This document shows positions 16,973-24,531 of a stretch of 64,000 nucleotides of DNA, one piece after another. The notes under the pieces are model-generated. The model was not told where the DNA came from. It searched no databases and saw nothing but the letters and a program-made list of their open reading frames with translations. The stretch spans positions 1-64,000 of the forward strand of contig JANQLK010000025.1 of NCBI GenBank assembly GCA_028280615.1, in the 5' to 3' direction. The position numbers were made by a program, and so were the translations under genes. Positions within the stretch are counted from its first letter, which is position 1; the number at the start of each line of letters is the position of its first letter. The DNA is from Woeseiaceae bacterium (GTDB lineage: Bacteria; Pseudomonadota; Gammaproteobacteria; Steroidobacterales; Woeseiaceae).

Positions 16973-18022
16973 ATGCCCGCCCAGCACATCACAACCCGGC
17001 TCGTCGCGACGCTCCTGTGTGCGTCGCTCGTCGGCGGCTGCTACTACGGCCAGGCCGCCCGCGGCCAGTTCGAGGTCATTTACAAACGCGAGCCGATCAT
17101 GAAGCTCATCGACGACCCAGACACCCCGCCCGAGCTCGTCAGACGGCTCGAGGTCGTCACGGCGGCGCGCGACTTTTCAGTCGAAGAGCTCGGCCTGCCC
17201 GACAACAAGAGCTATCGCGGCTACACGGATCTCGAGCGCGACTACGTCGTCTGGAACGTCTTCGCCGCGCCCGAATTCTCGCTCGAGCCTGAAACATGGT
17301 GCTTTCCCGTGGCGGGCTGCGTCGCCTACCGCGGCTATTTCAGGCGCGAAGCCGCCGAGCGCCAAGCGCGAAGGCTTAAGAAGCGGGGGCTCGACGTCCA
17401 CGTCGGCGGCGTGACGGCGTATTCGACGCTCGGCAAGTTCAACGACCCGGTCCTCAACACGATGCTCAAGTGGGACGACGTCCAGCTCGCATCCGTTTTG
17501 TTCCACGAACTCGCGCACCAGCGCCTGTACGTCAAGGGCGATTCGGCCTTCAACGAGTCGTTCGCCACGGCCGTGGAGGAATTTGCCATCGAGCGGTTTC
17601 TCGATCGTGAGCAGTCCGGCGACTCCATGGCCGTCTACCGCGAGCGCAAACGCGTAAGAGCCAGGCTGATGGGTCTTGTTGATAGGGCACGGCGGGACCT
17701 CGAAGCGCTGTATTCGAGCGGTGGGGCCGACATGCGTGCCGCAAAACGTGCCCGGCTCGACGCGCTAACGGCGGAGATTCGCGAACTGTATGCGGGCGAG
17801 GGACTCAGCGTGAATGAGGAATGGCTCGGCGCACCGTTCAATAACGCGCGCATCGCATCCATGGTCCTCTATGACGGCAGGCTGCCGGCGTTTCGCGCCC
17901 TGCTTGCGGACTGCGATGGCGATCTCGAGTGCTTTTATTCCGAGGCAGAGCGCCTGGCCGAGCTGTCGAAGGCGGAGCGAGACGCCGCTCTCGATGCGCT
18001 AGGTGCCGTGTCCCGCAAATAG
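16973..18022 (+). CDS. Predicted lipoprotein aminopeptidase (zinc metallopeptidase)
   Basis: This is a 349-residue protein with a lipoprotein signal ending in LVGGC (Cys23). The metalloprotease motif HELAHQRLYVKGDSAFNESF (about 181-200) places it in the predicted aminopeptidase family (DUF/PF10023). The zinc ligands would be the two histidines and a downstream glutamate (FNESFA). It is therefore probably exported and membrane-anchored. The start at 16973 is the only one giving a signal peptide. It overlaps the convergent tetR-type gene by 24 bp at the 3' end. Confidence 0.85.
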   Translation: MPAQHITTRLVATLLCASLVGGCYYGQAARGQFEVIYKREPIMKLIDDPDTPPELVRRLEVVTAARDFSVEELGLPDNKSYRGYTDLERDYVVWNVFAAPEFSLEPETWCFPVAGCVAYRGYFRREAAERQARRLKKRGLDVHVGGVTAYSTLGKFNDPVLNTMLKWDDVQLASVLFHELAHQRLYVKGDSAFNESFATAVEEFAIERFLDREQSGDSMAVYRERKRVRARLMGLVDRARRDLEALYSSGGADMRAAKRARLDALTAEIRELYAGEGLSVNEEWLGAPFNNARIASMVLYDGRLPAFRALLADCDGDLECFYSEAERLAELSKAERDAALDALGAVSRK

Positions 18023-18631
18023 CTTGAGGAACAGCCTTGTTGCGTAGTCGACGTGGCCGCGCCGCTCGGCGTCGTCGACGCCGTCGTCGATGCTGAGCAT
18101 GATCCTCGACTGGTAGTGGTCTGCCACGATGCCGTAGAACGTCCTCGCCGTCCGCGCAAGGTCGTCGCTGTCGAGTTCGTCCTCGTGATGGGCAAGAAAC
18201 CGCGTCAGCGAGTCCAGCGATTGCCGCGGGCCGGTATCGTAAAAGACCCTTGCGACGTGCGCGTGCTCGACCGACTCCGCCATGATCAGACGCCACATGC
18301 TGACGACCCGCGGGTCGGACAGGATGCGCAGGTAGCCGTCAGCGAACGCACGCAGCCCGGCTTCGAGCGTGTGGTATTCGGAGGGCTCGACGGTCAGGTC
18401 GTATTCGGCGACCTTCGACGCGATGCATGAGCGGAACAGCTCGTCCTTATTCGCGAAGTGCGAGTACACGGTCTGCTTGGAGACACCGGCGGCCTGCGCA
18501 ATGCTGTCCATCGAGGTCCGCTCGAAGCCCTCGGTCAGGAACAGGTTCGCGGCCGCCTCGCTGATCTGCTGGCGTTTTTCTTCACTTTTGGGCCGCCCGC
18601 GGCGCGCCGATACACTGTGTTTCAATTCCAT
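17999..18631 (-). CDS. TetR-family repressor of the efflux operon
   Basis: With the ATG at 18631 the product is 210 residues; an upstream TTG at 18667 would add 12. The N-terminal helix-turn-helix is clear (ISEAAANLFLTEGFERTSMD then IAQAAGVSKQTVYSHFANKD). The C-terminal ligand domain is AefR-like in length and contains FYGIVADHYQSRIM. It is divergent from the efflux operon, with operator-like repeats between them, so it probably represses both directions until a pump substrate binds. Neither start has a Shine-Dalgarno sequence, and each lies directly after one copy of the repeated operator. Confidence 0.9.
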   Translation of the reverse strand: MELKHSVSARRGRPKSEEKRQQISEAAANLFLTEGFERTSMDSIAQAAGVSKQTVYSHFANKDELFRSCIASKVAEYDLTVEPSEYHTLEAGLRAFADGYLRILSDPRVVSMWRLIMAESVEHAHVARVFYDTGPRQSLDSLTRFLAHHEDELDSDDLARTARTFYGIVADHYQSRIMLSIDDGVDDAERRGHVDYATRLFLKLFAGHGT

Positions 18632-18682
18632 ACTGGACAGTCTAGTTTTATCGTGCTTTAATTTCAAACCGTACAGTCTAGT
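18632..18682. promoter_or_regulatory. Two operator-like repeats between tetR and the efflux genes
   Basis: ACTGGACAGTCTAGT at 18632-18646 and ACCGTACAGTCTAGT at 18668-18682 are 13 of 15 identical and 36 bp apart. Each is an imperfect palindrome around GACNGTC or GTACAGTC, as expected for a TetR dimer site. The second copy overlaps the minus-strand -10 hexamer. Binding by the adjacent regulator is inferred. Confidence 0.7.
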
Positions 18683-18747: not shown

Positions 18748-19881
18748 ATGAGTCGTGCAGTATACGCGTTTTCCAGCCTGATGATGGCCTCGGCGCTGGT
18801 CGCCTGCGGCAACGAAGGGGGCGAGGCCGAGCTCACGCCCAGGTACGTCCACACGATCCGGGTCGAAGCCGCTTCGGGTTACGCCGAGCAGCAGAGCTAT
18901 ACGGGCCGGGTCGAGGCGGCGGCTTCGAGTGCGCTCGGTTTCGAGGTCGGTGGCCTGCTCGTCGACGTCACCGTAGATGACGGCGACAGGGTCAGCGCGG
19001 GCGAGGTGCTGGCGCGGCTCGACACGGCGCGGCTCGAGGCAAGTCACGCCGAGGCCGAGGCGGCGGTTGCGCTCGTGGGCGCCGACCTCGACCTGGCGCG
19101 GGCGACGCTCGCGCGCACCGAGGAGGCTTTCGACTACAAAGGCGTCTCGAGCCAGCAGCTTGATGAAGCCCGGCAGCGCGTGTCGGCGCTCGTGGCCCAG
19201 CAGCGGGTCGCCGAAGCGCGGCTCAAGCGCATCGATGTCGATCTCGACAAGTCGTCGCTCAGGGCGCCGTTCGACGGCACCGTCGTCAGGCGCAGCGCCG
19301 ACCCGGGCGCCGTGCTGGCCGCCGGGCAGGCCCTGATCGACATCCAGAGCGACCGCCGGCCCGAGGTGCGCGTTGGCATAACGCCGGAGGCCGCCGGCTC
19401 GCTCGAGGTCGGCGAGTCGTACCGGCTAACGATCAATGGCCGGGAGACACATGCGAGCCTGCGCGGCGTGGTGCCCCGGCGAGATGAGGTGACCCGTACG
19501 GTCGACGCGCTGTTCGTCATCGGCGGCGACGGGCAGGATGCGCGGCCCGGCGATGCCGCCGAACTCGAGAACACACGTTTCATCGAAGCGCCGGGCTACT
19601 GGGTGCCTGTCGCCGCGCTGGCCGAGGGACCGCGCGGGCTCTGGCAGGTGCTCGTCGCAGAGCAGGCAGCCGGCGGCGGCCATACGCTCGGTGCAAGAAC
19701 GCTCGAGGTGCTGTACTCCGACGGCGAGCGTGCGTATACGCGCGGCGCGCTCTCCGGTGGTGAGCGGGTCGTGGCGACCGGTACTCAGCGCGTCGTCGCC
19801 GGTCAGGCCGTGCGGCTCGACCGAAGCGCCGACGGCGCACGCGTTGCGCTCGCCGGCGAGGGAGAGGGCGATGACGACTGA
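18748..19881 (+). CDS. RND efflux periplasmic adaptor (membrane fusion protein) lipoprotein
   Basis: This is a 377-residue adaptor of the HlyD/AcrA type that links the RND pump to the outer-membrane factor. GAGGG lies 7 bases before the ATG. The N-terminus is a lipoprotein signal (SALVAC, Cys20). A lipoyl half-motif follows (ALGFEVGGLLVDVTVDDGDR, then VSAGEVLARLD), then a coiled-coil hairpin (about 85-150) and the second lipoyl half (LRAPFDGTVVRR). Beta-barrel and membrane-proximal domains complete it. Its stop overlaps the pump start by 11 bases. Confidence 0.93.
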   Translation: MSRAVYAFSSLMMASALVACGNEGGEAELTPRYVHTIRVEAASGYAEQQSYTGRVEAAASSALGFEVGGLLVDVTVDDGDRVSAGEVLARLDTARLEASHAEAEAAVALVGADLDLARATLARTEEAFDYKGVSSQQLDEARQRVSALVAQQRVAEARLKRIDVDLDKSSLRAPFDGTVVRRSADPGAVLAAGQALIDIQSDRRPEVRVGITPEAAGSLEVGESYRLTINGRETHASLRGVVPRRDEVTRTVDALFVIGGDGQDARPGDAAELENTRFIEAPGYWVPVAALAEGPRGLWQVLVAEQAAGGGHTLGARTLEVLYSDGERAYTRGALSGGERVVATGTQRVVAGQAVRLDRSADGARVALAGEGEGDDD

Positions 19882-22800
19882 ACCCGGTGTCCTCCGCGAT
19901 CTGCTGTTCCGCAATTCTCACCTGCTCGTGCTCGCCGTGCTCGTCATCGCGCTGGCGGGCCTGTCCGCCTTGTCCAACCTGCCGCGGATCGAGGACCCGC
20001 GGATCACGACCCGCAATGCGCTCGTGCTGACCCAGTTCCCGGGCGCGTCGGCCGAGCGTGTCGAGGCGCTCGTTACCGAGCCGCTCGAGGAAGAGCTTCG
20101 CGGCGTCGAGGAGATAAAGGAGATCAAGTCGACGTCGCGCGCCAATATCTCCATCTTGAGCATCGAGCTCGTGGACAGCATCGATGCATCGACCAACGAG
20201 CAGGCGTTTTCACGTATTCGCGACCGGCTTGCGGAGGCCGAGGCGGCGCTTCCCCCGGGCGCCGGTAAGCCGTCGTTCGACGACGAGCGCGGCGCCTCGG
20301 CCTTCGCGCTGGTCGTCGCGCTGTCGAGCACGGCCAACAATCAGCAATCGCTTGGCATGCTGAGCCGGCTCGGCGACGAACTGGCCGACCGGCTGCGCAA
20401 TCTGCCTGGCGCCGAGCGCGTGAGCGTGTACGGCGACACCGAGGAGGAAATCACGGTCACGCTGGACCGTGGCGAACTCGCCTCCCAGGGGCTCACGGCA
20501 GCCTCGATCGCCCAGCTCGTCGGCGCGGCCGATCCGAAAGGGGCGGCCGGCGCGCTGCGCGCAAGCGATCGCGACCTGTATCTCGAGGTGGGCGGTGAGC
20601 TCGACTCGGCCGCCCGCATCCGTGGCCTCGTGCTCAGGCAGGGCGCGGACGGCCGGCAGCTCAGGCTCGGCGACATCGCCCGCGTCGAACGTCGCTGGCG
20701 GGAGCCGCCCGAGAGCTACGGCTACGTAAACGGCGTCCGCAGCGTGTTCGTCGCGGCGGCGGCATCCGAAAACGTGCGCATCGACCGCTGGCAGGTCGCC
20801 GCCGATGCGGTTGTCGAACGCTTCGCGGCGTCGCTCGACGGCAGCGTCCGCGTCGAAGAGGTTTTCCGCCAGAGCGAGTACACGCGCGACCGGCTGTCGT
20901 CCCTGGGTAACAACCTCGCCATGGGTGCGGCCGTCGTAATGCTCGTCGTGCTCGTGGGCATGGGCTGGCGGGCGGCGCTGATCGTCGGCAGCGCTCTGCC
21001 GCTCTCGGCCTTCGCGACGCTGTTCGGGCTGACGTTCTTCGGCCAGCAGATTCACCAGATGACGATCTTCGGCATGATCATCGCGATCGGGCTCCTGATC
21101 GACAACGCGATCGTGGTGACCGACGAAATCCACAGGCGACTGCGCGCCGGCAGCGGCCGTCGCGAGGCCGTCGCCGGTGCCGTATCGCACCTGTCCGCGC
21201 CGCTGCTCGCGTCCACGGTCACGACCATCCTCGGCTTCATGCCGATCTTCCTGTTGCCCGGCAACATTGGCGACTTCGTCGGCCCGATAGCAATCAGCGT
21301 CGTGCTGGCGCTGTCGGCGTCGTTCGTGATCTCGCTGACGATCATCGCCGCACTCGCGGGCCGTTTCCTGGACCGCGACGGTGGGCCCGCCAGTCACGAT
21401 CGTCGCTGGTGGCGCGACGGCATCGAGGCCCGGCGACTCACCGCGTTAAGCCGGCGGCTGCTTACGCGCCTGTTCCAGCGTCCCGTTGCGGCAATCGGCT
21501 TGGCGCTGGTCCTGCCCGTGCTCGGCTTCGTGCTGGCCGGGACCTTGCGCCTCGAGTTCTTTCCGCCCGCCGATCGCGACCAGTTCGAGATCGAGGTCTG
21601 GATGGCCGACGACGCATCGGTGAGCCGCACCCGGGACCTGGGCCTCGAGATCGAGCAGGCTTTAAGAGAGCGCCCGGGCGTGCGCCAGGTGAGCTGGCTG
21701 GTCGGGGGCAGCCATCCGCAGCTCTACTACAACCGCATCATGAAGCAGGACAACAATGCGGCCTACGCGCATGCCATGGTCCTGGCCGAGTCGACGGCCG
21801 CCGCGAACCGGCTCGTTGTCGAACTGCAGGATGAGCTCGACGAGCGTTTCCCGGGCGCACAGATCATCGTTGCTCCGTTCGCGCAGGGGCCGCCCGTCGA
21901 TGCGCCGGTCGGCTTTCGCATCGTCGGACCGAGTTCCGCCACGCTGACCCGGCTCGGCAACGAACTGCGCCGGGTCATGCACGAGGTGCCCGGCATCCGC
22001 CACACGCGCGCATCGATCGCAAGCCGCGCCAAGCTGACCTTCGACGCCGACCAGGGCATGGCCGGCCGCGCGGGGCTGACGCTCGACGGCATCGCCGCCG
22101 AACTGCAGGGCAATCTCGAGGGCTTTACAGGCGGCTCCGTGCGCGAGGATCTCGAGACGCTGCCCGTCAGGATTCGCTACGACGGCGACGTTCGCGGCTC
22201 GTTCGCGAGCATCGCATCGATGCCGCTCACGGCCGGCTCGGGCGAGCGCTGGGTACCGGCCGATGCGCTCGGGGAGATGCGGCTCGAGCCCGAGAGCGCG
22301 AGCATCACGCGGCGCAACGGGGAGCGCGTCAACACGGTGCACGGCTGGGTGCGTCCCGGCGTGCTGCCGATCGAAGCGGCCAACGCGGTGCTGGCCAGGC
22401 TCGACGCCGCGGGCTTCGAACTGCCGCCCGGCTACCGGCTCGAGCTTGAGGGCGATAGCGACGCACAGCAGGATGCCGTCGCCGCGTTGACGACCTACCT
22501 GCCGGTTTTGCTCATGCTCATGGTGACGACGCTCGTGCTGTCGTTCAGGAGCGCCGCCGCGGCCGGCGTCATCGGCGCCGTCGCGCTGCTGTCGGCCGGA
22601 CTCGGAATGCTGTCGCTCAAGCTGTCGGGCTTCAACTTGGGCTTCAATCCGCTGATCGGCAGCGCCGGCCTCATCGGCGTCGCGATCAACGGCGCGATCG
22701 TCGTGCTGGCGGCGCTGCGTGCGAACCGCGAGGCACGGCAGGGCAGCGTCGCGGCGATCGTCGAGATCACGATCGGCGAAGCGCGCCACGTGCTCGCGAC

Positions 22801-24370
22801 GACGGCGACGACGATCGGTGGATTCCTGCCGCTGTTCGTGTTCTCCGGCGGGGAATTCTGGCCGCCGCTCGCCGTCGTGATTGCAGGTGGCGTCGGTTTC
22901 TCGGTAATCCTGTCACTCGTGTTCACACCGGCCGTGTTCGCGCTCATGACTCGCCCTTCGCCGCGGCTGGCGGCGTTGCCGGCCGGTTCGTCCGTGGCGG
23001 CCGTCCTGTTGCTGTTCCTCGGCGGCTGCGCAGTCGGGCCCGACTACGAAGCTCCGGATGCGGGCGACAGCGGCGAGTGGATCGACACGGCCGCGGAGGC
23101 CGGCGCCGGTCAGGCCGGCTGGTGGCGGGATTTCGACGATCCGCTGATCGAGGCCTACGTGACGACGGCGCTCGATACGAACAACGACGTCGCCGTCGCC
23201 CGTGCGAACCTTGCCGAGGCGCGAGCGCTGGCTCTCGTCGCCCGCTCCCGGCTCCTGCCGACGTTGAACGCGAACGGCAGCGTGACGGACTTCAAGCTCA
23301 GTGAGGAAAACCCCCAGTTCGCGAACGCCGCCGGTCTCGCGCCGCTCACGGGAGAACTGTACGACGCGGGCTTCGATTCGCGCTGGGAACTCGATGTGTT
23401 TGGCGGCAACCGTTCGAGGACCGCGGCGGGTTATGCGCGCGGCGAGCAGAGCGCGCATTTGCTCGAGGCCGTGCGCCTGAGCGTGGCAGCGGAGGTGGTA
23501 CGCGCTATCGTGGAACTCCGCGGACTGCAGCGTCGTCTCGACGTTGCGGAGCGGAACGAGGCCAACCAGACCGAGACGCTCACGCTCGTCGAGTCGCGGC
23601 AGCAGAGCGGGCTCGCGCCCGAACTCGACGTCCTGAATGCGCGAGCGCAGCTCGAGGGCACGCGGTCGAGCCTGCCGCAGCTCGAGGCGGGCATCCGTAC
23701 CGCCGCATTGCGCCTGGCGACCCTGACCGCGACCGATGCCGCGGCCGTGGTCGCGGACTTCACGCCGCGGAGGCCGATCCCGACGCTCGATCGAACGCTC
23801 GAACCGGGTCTGCGCGGCGACGTGCTGAGACGACGCCCCGACGTGCGCGCGGCCGAGCGTGCGATGGCTGCCGCTACGGCGGACCTCGGCGTGGCCGTCG
23901 CCGATTTCTATCCGAAGTTCACGCTCAACGCGAACTACGGCTGGCAGGCGCTGAGCACGTCGTCGCTCGGGGACCCGGCAACCGAGACGTCGGCGCTGCT
24001 CGGCATCGTCAGCGTGCCGCTGTTCGCGGGCGGCAGGCTCCGCGCCAATCGCGATGCAGCCGACGCGCGGCTCGTCGCGAGCGAGGCGCGCTACCGACAG
24101 GCCGTGCTGCTCGCGATCGAGGAGTCGGAGGGCGCGATCAACCGCTACCGCCGCAGCCAGGCAAGCGTCGCGCATTTGAGTGAGTCGGCATCGGCAAGCG
24201 CGGACGCGGCAGTCATCGCACGTCGACTCTACGAATCGGGACTGCGCGGCTTCCTGGCCGTGCTCGATGCCGAGCGACGCCGACTCATCGCCGAAGAGGC
24301 GCTGGCGAGCCGCCAGACCGAGGCGGTACTGAACCTGGTCGCCGTTTACAAGGCGCTGGGTGCGATCTAA
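19871..24370 (+). CDS. In-frame fusion of an RND efflux pump and a NodT-type outer-membrane lipoprotein
   Basis: This is one uninterrupted 1499-codon frame. Residues 1-1025 are a complete RND permease: TM1 from about 17-37, porter loops, the TM4 segment FGMIIAIGLLIDNAIVVTDE, a second half with GLTLDGIAAELQG, and TM12 ending VFTPAVFALM. Residue 1026 is a methionine (ATG at 22946) that opens a perfect lipoprotein signal: MTRPSPRLAAL, a hydrophobic run, then FLGGC with Cys1053. The NodT hallmark CAVGPDYEAPD and an outer-membrane factor of about 445 residues follow (RRRPDVRAAERAMAAATADL, VPLFAGGRLRANRD). No stop or frameshift separates them. It could be cleaved by signal peptidase II at Cys1053, or the outer-membrane part could be made from the internal ATG, although no Shine-Dalgarno precedes it. 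The TM4 motif has Asp-Asn where AcrB has Asp-Asp. Confidence 0.92.
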   Translation: MTTEPGVLRDLLFRNSHLLVLAVLVIALAGLSALSNLPRIEDPRITTRNALVLTQFPGASAERVEALVTEPLEEELRGVEEIKEIKSTSRANISILSIELVDSIDASTNEQAFSRIRDRLAEAEAALPPGAGKPSFDDERGASAFALVVALSSTANNQQSLGMLSRLGDELADRLRNLPGAERVSVYGDTEEEITVTLDRGELASQGLTAASIAQLVGAADPKGAAGALRASDRDLYLEVGGELDSAARIRGLVLRQGADGRQLRLGDIARVERRWREPPESYGYVNGVRSVFVAAAASENVRIDRWQVAADAVVERFAASLDGSVRVEEVFRQSEYTRDRLSSLGNNLAMGAAVVMLVVLVGMGWRAALIVGSALPLSAFATLFGLTFFGQQIHQMTIFGMIIAIGLLIDNAIVVTDEIHRRLRAGSGRREAVAGAVSHLSAPLLASTVTTILGFMPIFLLPGNIGDFVGPIAISVVLALSASFVISLTIIAALAGRFLDRDGGPASHDRRWWRDGIEARRLTALSRRLLTRLFQRPVAAIGLALVLPVLGFVLAGTLRLEFFPPADRDQFEIEVWMADDASVSRTRDLGLEIEQALRERPGVRQVSWLVGGSHPQLYYNRIMKQDNNAAYAHAMVLAESTAAANRLVVELQDELDERFPGAQIIVAPFAQGPPVDAPVGFRIVGPSSATLTRLGNELRRVMHEVPGIRHTRASIASRAKLTFDADQGMAGRAGLTLDGIAAELQGNLEGFTGGSVREDLETLPVRIRYDGDVRGSFASIASMPLTAGSGERWVPADALGEMRLEPESASITRRNGERVNTVHGWVRPGVLPIEAANAVLARLDAAGFELPPGYRLELEGDSDAQQDAVAALTTYLPVLLMLMVTTLVLSFRSAAAAGVIGAVALLSAGLGMLSLKLSGFNLGFNPLIGSAGLIGVAINGAIVVLAALRANREARQGSVAAIVEITIGEARHVLATTATTIGGFLPLFVFSGGEFWPPLAVVIAGGVGFSVILSLVFTPAVFALMTRPSPRLAALPAGSSVAAVLLLFLGGCAVGPDYEAPDAGDSGEWIDTAAEAGAGQAGWWRDFDDPLIEAYVTTALDTNNDVAVARANLAEARALALVARSRLLPTLNANGSVTDFKLSEENPQFANAAGLAPLTGELYDAGFDSRWELDVFGGNRSRTAAGYARGEQSAHLLEAVRLSVAAEVVRAIVELRGLQRRLDVAERNEANQTETLTLVESRQQSGLAPELDVLNARAQLEGTRSSLPQLEAGIRTAALRLATLTATDAAAVVADFTPRRPIPTLDRTLEPGLRGDVLRRRPDVRAAERAMAAATADLGVAVADFYPKFTLNANYGWQALSTSSLGDPATETSALLGIVSVPLFAGGRLRANRDAADARLVASEARYRQAVLLAIEESEGAINRYRRSQASVAHLSESASASADAAVIARRLYESGLRGFLAVLDAERRRLIAEEALASRQTEAVLNLVAVYKALGAI

Positions 24371-24531
24371 CAGTCTGTTGAAAAAGCCATCCATGGCTTT
24401 TTCAACCTCACGAACTGAAAAGCGCGGTTTTCAGTTCGCTCGCATTTTCAATGGCTTACCGCCATTAAAAATGTCGGCACGTCCCTGTGCCGGTCGCAGA
24501 CAGTCGAAAAACTGCGTTTTTCAACAGCCTG
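24371..24531. repeat. 161-bp five-hairpin element with terminal inverted repeats
   Basis: The element begins on the base after the pump TAA and ends on the base before the convergent transglycosylase stop. Its ends, CAGTCTGTTGAAAAA (24371-24385) and TTTTTCAACAGCCTG (24517-24531), are inverted copies with one mismatch. Inside are a 14-bp perfect stem (24377-24390/24393-24406), a 10-bp perfect stem (24412-24421/24428-24437), a 12-bp stem with one mismatch (24444-24455/24461-24472), a 6-bp stem (24475-24480/24487-24492) and a 7-bp stem (24506-24512/24516-24522). The T- and A-rich arms suit a bidirectional terminator. The terminal repeats look like a miniature mobile element. Confidence 0.8.

Follow-up and report, generated by a model that had tools for sequence, protein, structure and literature searches.

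An RND efflux pump and its putative outer-membrane factor in a single reading frame with an internal lipobox in a Woeseiaceae bacterium

In a 64,000-nucleotide stretch of a Woeseiaceae draft genome (GenBank assembly GCA_028280615.1, contig JANQLK010000025.1; hereafter the window), we found an RND efflux pump and an outer-membrane factor (OMF) in one open reading frame, with a lipobox between the two domains. A single polyprotein with an internal lipobox, which would be cut there by signal peptidase II, fits the sequence data best, and we regard this reading as very likely. An OMF usually has a gene of its own with an N-terminal signal; here, the signal lies inside the pump frame. A shared frame for the two domains, interrupted by a likely peptidase site, was found in seven of seven gammaproteobacterial genomes and in 16 of 16 Bacteroidota proteins fetched.

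The frame stays open from the ATG at 19871 to the stop codon at 24368-24370, and this direct reading bears out the first-pass annotation, which had reported neither a stop nor a frame change between pump and OMF. The ATG overlaps the end of the adaptor gene by 11 bases. The adaptor scores 165.7 bits against TIGR01730 RND_mfp (cut-off 94.9; the search frame was run from 18745, the translation starts at 18748) and carries a lipobox-like LVAC of its own. A TetR-family neighbour, as in the window (Table 1), was also confirmed by Pfam beside the pump genes in two of the genomes discussed below (L002 and L003). On the strand opposite to the OMF part, a 493-aa open frame (window 22913-24394, minus strand) is probably a by-product of the high G+C content.

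Table 1. Features of the efflux locus in window coordinates.
Feature	Position	Strand	Basis or remark
TetR-family regulator, AefR-like C-terminal domain	17999..18667	-	Pfam TetR_N and TetR_C_7; transcribed away from the efflux genes
Periplasmic adaptor (membrane fusion protein), 377 aa	18748..19881	+	TIGR01730 RND_mfp
Fused RND pump and OMF, 1499 aa	19871..24370	+	Stop-free open reading frame; Pfam and NCBIfam
RND pump part, residues 1-1025	19871..22945	+	ACR_tran 18-1026
Junction, with TPAVF at the end of TM12, then a basic stretch (net +2) and a hydrophobic one ending LGG	22925..23026	+	Predicted 13th helix
Met1026 codon, candidate internal start	22946..22948	+	Shine-Dalgarno energy -4.1
OMF, predicted mature from Cys1053 to residue 1499	23027..24367	+	outer_NodT and OEP; alignment to OprN, OprJ and OprM

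Both domains passed the curated threshold of a family model: the pump part matches Pfam ACR_tran with 454.4 bits (cut-off 28, residues 18-1026) and the OMF part TIGR01845 outer_NodT with 293 bits (cut-off 210.05, residues 1045-1497). Against the CusA/CzcA heavy-metal model TIGR00914 the pump stays below the cut-off (272.8 bits, cut-off 701.45), and among the 25 NCBIfam models listed it scores under the cut-off of every RND permease model. The best-scoring solved sequences are those of TriABC/MexJK-type pumps for the pump half, i.e. MexK (9xwg/20yy) and TriC (6vej; the entry title reads probable RND transporter), and of an OprN-type OMF for the other half; unlike the window fusion, these are separate proteins. 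An AlphaFold model of window residues 861-1499 (the C-terminal 639), made with six sequences, was too poor to support the predicted 13th helix (mean pLDDT 54.8, pTM 0.34).

The junction runs from the TPAVF at the end of TM12 through a basic and a hydrophobic stretch to LGG/C1053. Every detail of the first-pass annotation that we checked here was correct: Met1026 opens a signal of 27 residues, up to Gly1052, and the lipobox LGGC ends at Cys1053 (23027-23029). In alignments with the solved OMFs OprN, OprJ and OprM, Cys1053 falls on the first residue of the mature proteins, and thus the OMF part has its lipobox Cys where OprM-type OMFs have theirs, at the predicted mature N-terminus. LspA is encoded in the source genome.

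The pump itself belongs to a subfamily with altered candidate proton-relay residues. Its motifs read GLLIDNAIVV (window 21089-21118, from residue 407) and GVAINGAIVV (window 22676-22705, from residue 936). Of the 25 aligned rows that cover the site, none has the second Asp of the AcrB-type pair (Asn in 24, Ala in one), and none of the 26 rows with the TM10 site has a Lys in this stretch, where K940 is found in AcrB. With the second Asp and the TM10 Lys both missing, the proton relay of this subfamily should differ from that of AcrB.

How widely is the fused frame distributed? All seven genomes with a pump part of 68% identity or more in the aligned region, the window genome among them, carry the in-frame, stop-free junction and the lipobox. 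The six others are L001 (= L017, G021), L002 (= L046, G176), L003 (= L018, G005), L009 (= L054, G030), L010 (= L019, G006) and L011 (= L051, G185), where the equalities among L- and G-labels rest on matching alignment statistics; by their titles, all six are metagenome-assembled genomes assigned to Woeseiaceae or Gammaproteobacteria from three sample sets (IP29b, PL23b and MO_074). The contig of L010 ends inside the OMF, with the remaining part matched on another contig, and in G030 and G185 the gene is split across two contigs, while the junction itself is contiguous. At the family level, matches at E ≤ 1e-140 were present in 11 of 107 genomes, and six of the 107 carried the fusion; at the order level there were matches in 19 of 396 genomes, seven of them fused. 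The class sample gave matches in 8 of 369 genomes, and for the seven besides the own genome we found a pump stop in six and a contig that ends too early in one (L080).

Starting from the OMF, a sample of 114 Gammaproteobacteria genomes, the own genome among them, gave 50 NodT matches at E ≤ 1e-85, spread over 37 genomes; only one of the 50, the window frame, lies in an open frame longer than 900 aa. Two further candidates for a fusion were rejected: an OMF elsewhere in the own genome (G000:C3) lies in an 881-aa open frame that merely runs upstream across a separate pump gene, and the pump of L029, in an open frame of 1393 aa, ends in a stop. Among the best 60 of 1289 plasmid matches to the window protein and the best 60 of 3286 to its OMF, no resolvable row was fused; three rows that span both parts but carry no gene names (H5, H11 and H13, all below 31% identity) were left out of this count.

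A tree of 27 pump sequences groups the seven fused rows in a single clade (SH-aLRT 100), which requires one change, and none of the remaining twenty, at 59.2% identity or less, was seen fused. The tree was built by a quick method, with a long-branch warning for L014, L081 and L056; L009 and L011 enter it as fragments (26% and 30% of columns), and L080 (G494), which ends at the end of the pump, was left out. Among the twenty rows labelled as separate, L026 ends with its contig at pump residue 879, short of the junction, and in nine the pump ends in a stop and the sequence retrieved showed no OMF (L004, L005, L007, L014, L025, L056, L077, L079 and L081), the contig of L005 ending soon after the stop.

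The other ten (L006, L013, L022, L023, L024, L048, L049, L050, L076 and L078) are two-gene relatives that share with the window the pump subfamily, at 51-59% identity, and an adjoining OMF. Unlike in the window, this OMF is a gene of its own, whose start overlaps the pump stop in 10 of 10 parsed cases (nine ATGA and one GTGA), and which is therefore in another frame. Shine-Dalgarno energies at its start range from -3.5 to -15.3 (mean -9.6), and 7 of 10 are strong, at -8.8 or lower. Judged by these sequences, the fused clade has lost the stop, the frame offset and the Shine-Dalgarno sequence of the two-gene arrangement. It counts against the polyprotein reading that the lipobox and its Cys could in part be a legacy of the ancestor with two genes. 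The first-pass annotation had named two separate genes with a stop in all close relatives as one finding that would refute it; the close relatives turned out to be fused, and two genes were found only in more distant ones. One fused row (L002, G176) and one two-gene row (L048, G122) share the genus code g47 and stand apart on the tree, which suggests transfer or differential loss behind the mixed forms in this genus.

Within the fused clade, the linker from TPA to the Cys measures 34-36 residues in all seven genomes, and the net charge of its n-region lies between +2 and +5. The lipobox takes the forms LGGC (four genomes), ITGC, LAGC and LSGC, i.e. [LI]-x-G-C in 7 of 7, and the linker is otherwise poorly conserved around it (alignment of six of the seven). 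These are the features that a cleaved lipoprotein signal behind TM12 should have. The distance from the Cys to the first conserved WW is 31-41 residues in the seven fused proteins versus 31-43 in ten separate OMFs (the value of 43, from L023, was counted from the first Cys, possibly not the lipobox Cys), so that no extra tether has been added.

One of the other explanations is translation of a separate OMF from an internal start. Here, the cell would make two products, or only the second: the pump-OMF chain and an OMF that begins at Met1026 and has an ordinary lipoprotein signal of 27 residues. In the window, L009 and L011, an ATG is indeed fittingly placed, 26-27 codons ahead of the Cys, and an in-frame GTG inside TM12 has a fair Shine-Dalgarno energy in L010 (-8.9) and L011 (-7.6), which counts against the polyprotein reading. 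However, the energy at the window ATG equals the background (mean -3.5, SD 2.4, from 400 positions of the window's pump alone), with values of -1.9 and -5.5 at the junction ATG of L009 and L011. Furthermore, three of the seven fused genomes (L001, L003 and L010) lack an ATG in the interval from TPA to the Cys, L010 lacks GTG and TTG there as well, and the sole ATG of L002 in this interval sits within the hydrophobic stretch. The second start that the first-pass annotation had offered as an alternative is thus weakened both by the loss of the two-gene arrangement and by the three genomes that lack a junction ATG, and we consider it quite unlikely.

Could the chain be made as a whole and stay whole? 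An uncut 1499-aa protein would bridge both membranes, with the OMF tethered to its pump, and no sequence feature forbids the insertion of a 13th helix without cutting. Against this speaks that all seven genomes retain the lipobox Cys although the linker around it varies, and that the Cys-to-WW distance is no longer than in separate OMFs, whereas residue 1 of known OMFs lies at the outer membrane; the Bacteroidota fusions described below carry a signal peptidase I type site instead. We therefore hold an uncut bridge to be very improbable. Still less credible is a stop masked by faulty sequencing or assembly, or a pseudogene in decay: the window assembly is a draft in 58 contigs, but the in-frame junction is common to six further genomes from three sample sets and both halves, pump and OMF, are conserved among the fused genomes. 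We reject such an error because seven genomes share the junction.

For the polyprotein with an internal lipobox, we propose the following course. Pump and OMF would be translated as a single chain, for which the open frame is observed in seven genomes. TM12 would end on the cytoplasmic side and the basic linker would remain inside, so that the hydrophobic stretch may insert as an outward-pointing 13th helix, with the OMF part being exported through the Sec channel. Cys1053 would then be lipidated by Lgt and the chain cut by LspA between Gly1052 and Cys1053, as the conserved lipobox suggests, and the released lipoprotein OMF would be carried by the Lol system to the outer membrane. The pump would keep an extra C-terminal helix that ends in the periplasm, unless this is degraded. 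Pump and channel would thereby be produced in equal amounts, as required for a 3:3 complex.

Is such a fusion confined to this clade? A Flavobacterium fusion protein used as a query matched 38 plasmid records at a cover of at least 80%, of which we fetched 16 (L071-L074 and L082-L093); the Hymenobacter rows H340, H341 and H343 cover the pump only. Each of the 16 is a single CDS of 1436-1492 aa that is named only as a CusA/CzcA-family pump. Pfam ACR_tran and OEP were both found in 4 of the 4 proteins run, and the other 12 were assigned by tblastn and alignment. Behind the internal hydrophobic stretch, all 16 have Ala-Gln (15) or Ser-Gln (one, L089), where the Q column was located by alignment and not by a signal predictor. 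A fixed rule, [AVSTILGN]xA|Q just past the hydrophobic stretch (the bar marks the predicted cut), was matched by 15 of 16, compared to 3.0 on average and at most 8 in 2000 shuffles, in which the shuffled stretches were 20 residues long and the observed count took sites within 17. Excerpts of a paper on the Q-rule (PMC5837995) report an enrichment of Gln directly behind signal peptidase I sites and note that inner-membrane proteins were not tested for pyroglutamate; RND is not mentioned in them.

The Bacteroidota proteins (e.g. WP_264563277.1, ~1450 aa) thus resemble the window protein in having pump and OMF in one frame, joined by a short stretch with an internal signal and a likely peptidase site. 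They differ in that the pump is a heavy-metal pump, no lipobox was seen, the site is signal peptidase I-like with Q at +1, and the adaptor gene lies downstream (16 of 16). We take the Bacteroidota fusion to be of separate origin because the pump family differs. Two pump families in two phyla thus carry an OMF joined on after TM12, and in both the internal signal suits the local peptidase. Going further, we tentatively suggest that RND-OMF polyproteins arose at least twice, with signal peptidase II here and signal peptidase I and the Q-rule in Bacteroidota, and that the uncut remnant might persist in the mature pump as a stable 13th helix, ending in the periplasm and serving in assembly or regulation; this is a possibility that we would rate below even. 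In the Bacteroidota records L065-L070, TolC is a separate gene; the fused forms came from a narrower CusA search. As a separate observation, a second RND permease on the Bacteroidota plasmids is annotated as two abutting or overlapping genes of about 425-450 and 630-644 aa. This split recurs in four records from four genera (L066:4001-7218, L067:3902-7119, L069:4679-7916 and L072:1-2182), and in L070 the permease is in three pieces.

A comparable case comes from respiration: fbcH of Bradyrhizobium encodes a cytochrome b-c1 polyprotein, in which an internal signal behind a polytopic membrane protein is cut and the exported protein is freed. It differs from the window protein in belonging to a respiratory complex, in being cut by signal peptidase I and in having no part in an efflux system; a full-text search gave no paper with the word fbcH. 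We found no description of a natural RND-OMF fusion, of the gammaproteobacterial or the Bacteroidota kind, in the full-text literature searched, whose coverage leaves out most subscription journals. The excerpts of PMC8277102, PMC4446572, PMC3548706 and PMC11213822 mention fused adaptor pairs and CusB-CusF fusions and, in these parts, no pump-OMF fusion. A pump-OMF fusion is nevertheless not unprecedented, because the Bacteroidota CusA/CzcA proteins are a separate fusion of this type that is already present in public annotation, as a pump only. Hence, of the interpretation given in the first-pass annotation, the polyprotein with an internal lipobox is best supported and the internal start is weak, while the remark that the arrangement is unusual for a tripartite efflux system holds for the sampled Gammaproteobacteria and not for the Bacteroidota CusA/CzcA proteins, in which such fusions recur.

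Tripartite pumps span two membranes and need their inner and outer components in matched amounts; how this balance is set is an open question. If our reading is true, a pump-OMF polyprotein would fix the balance of pump and channel by construction, and it would constitute a natural system in which the export, lipidation and sorting of an OMF are tied to the insertion of its pump. It would also mean that signal peptidases can cut a signal that lies behind twelve membrane helices. Entries named only CusA/CzcA (16 of the 16 fetched) hide an outer-membrane channel, which affects both annotation and topology models. The single locus by itself is a clade-specific fusion; the pattern of two origins, if it holds, would be the more surprising result.
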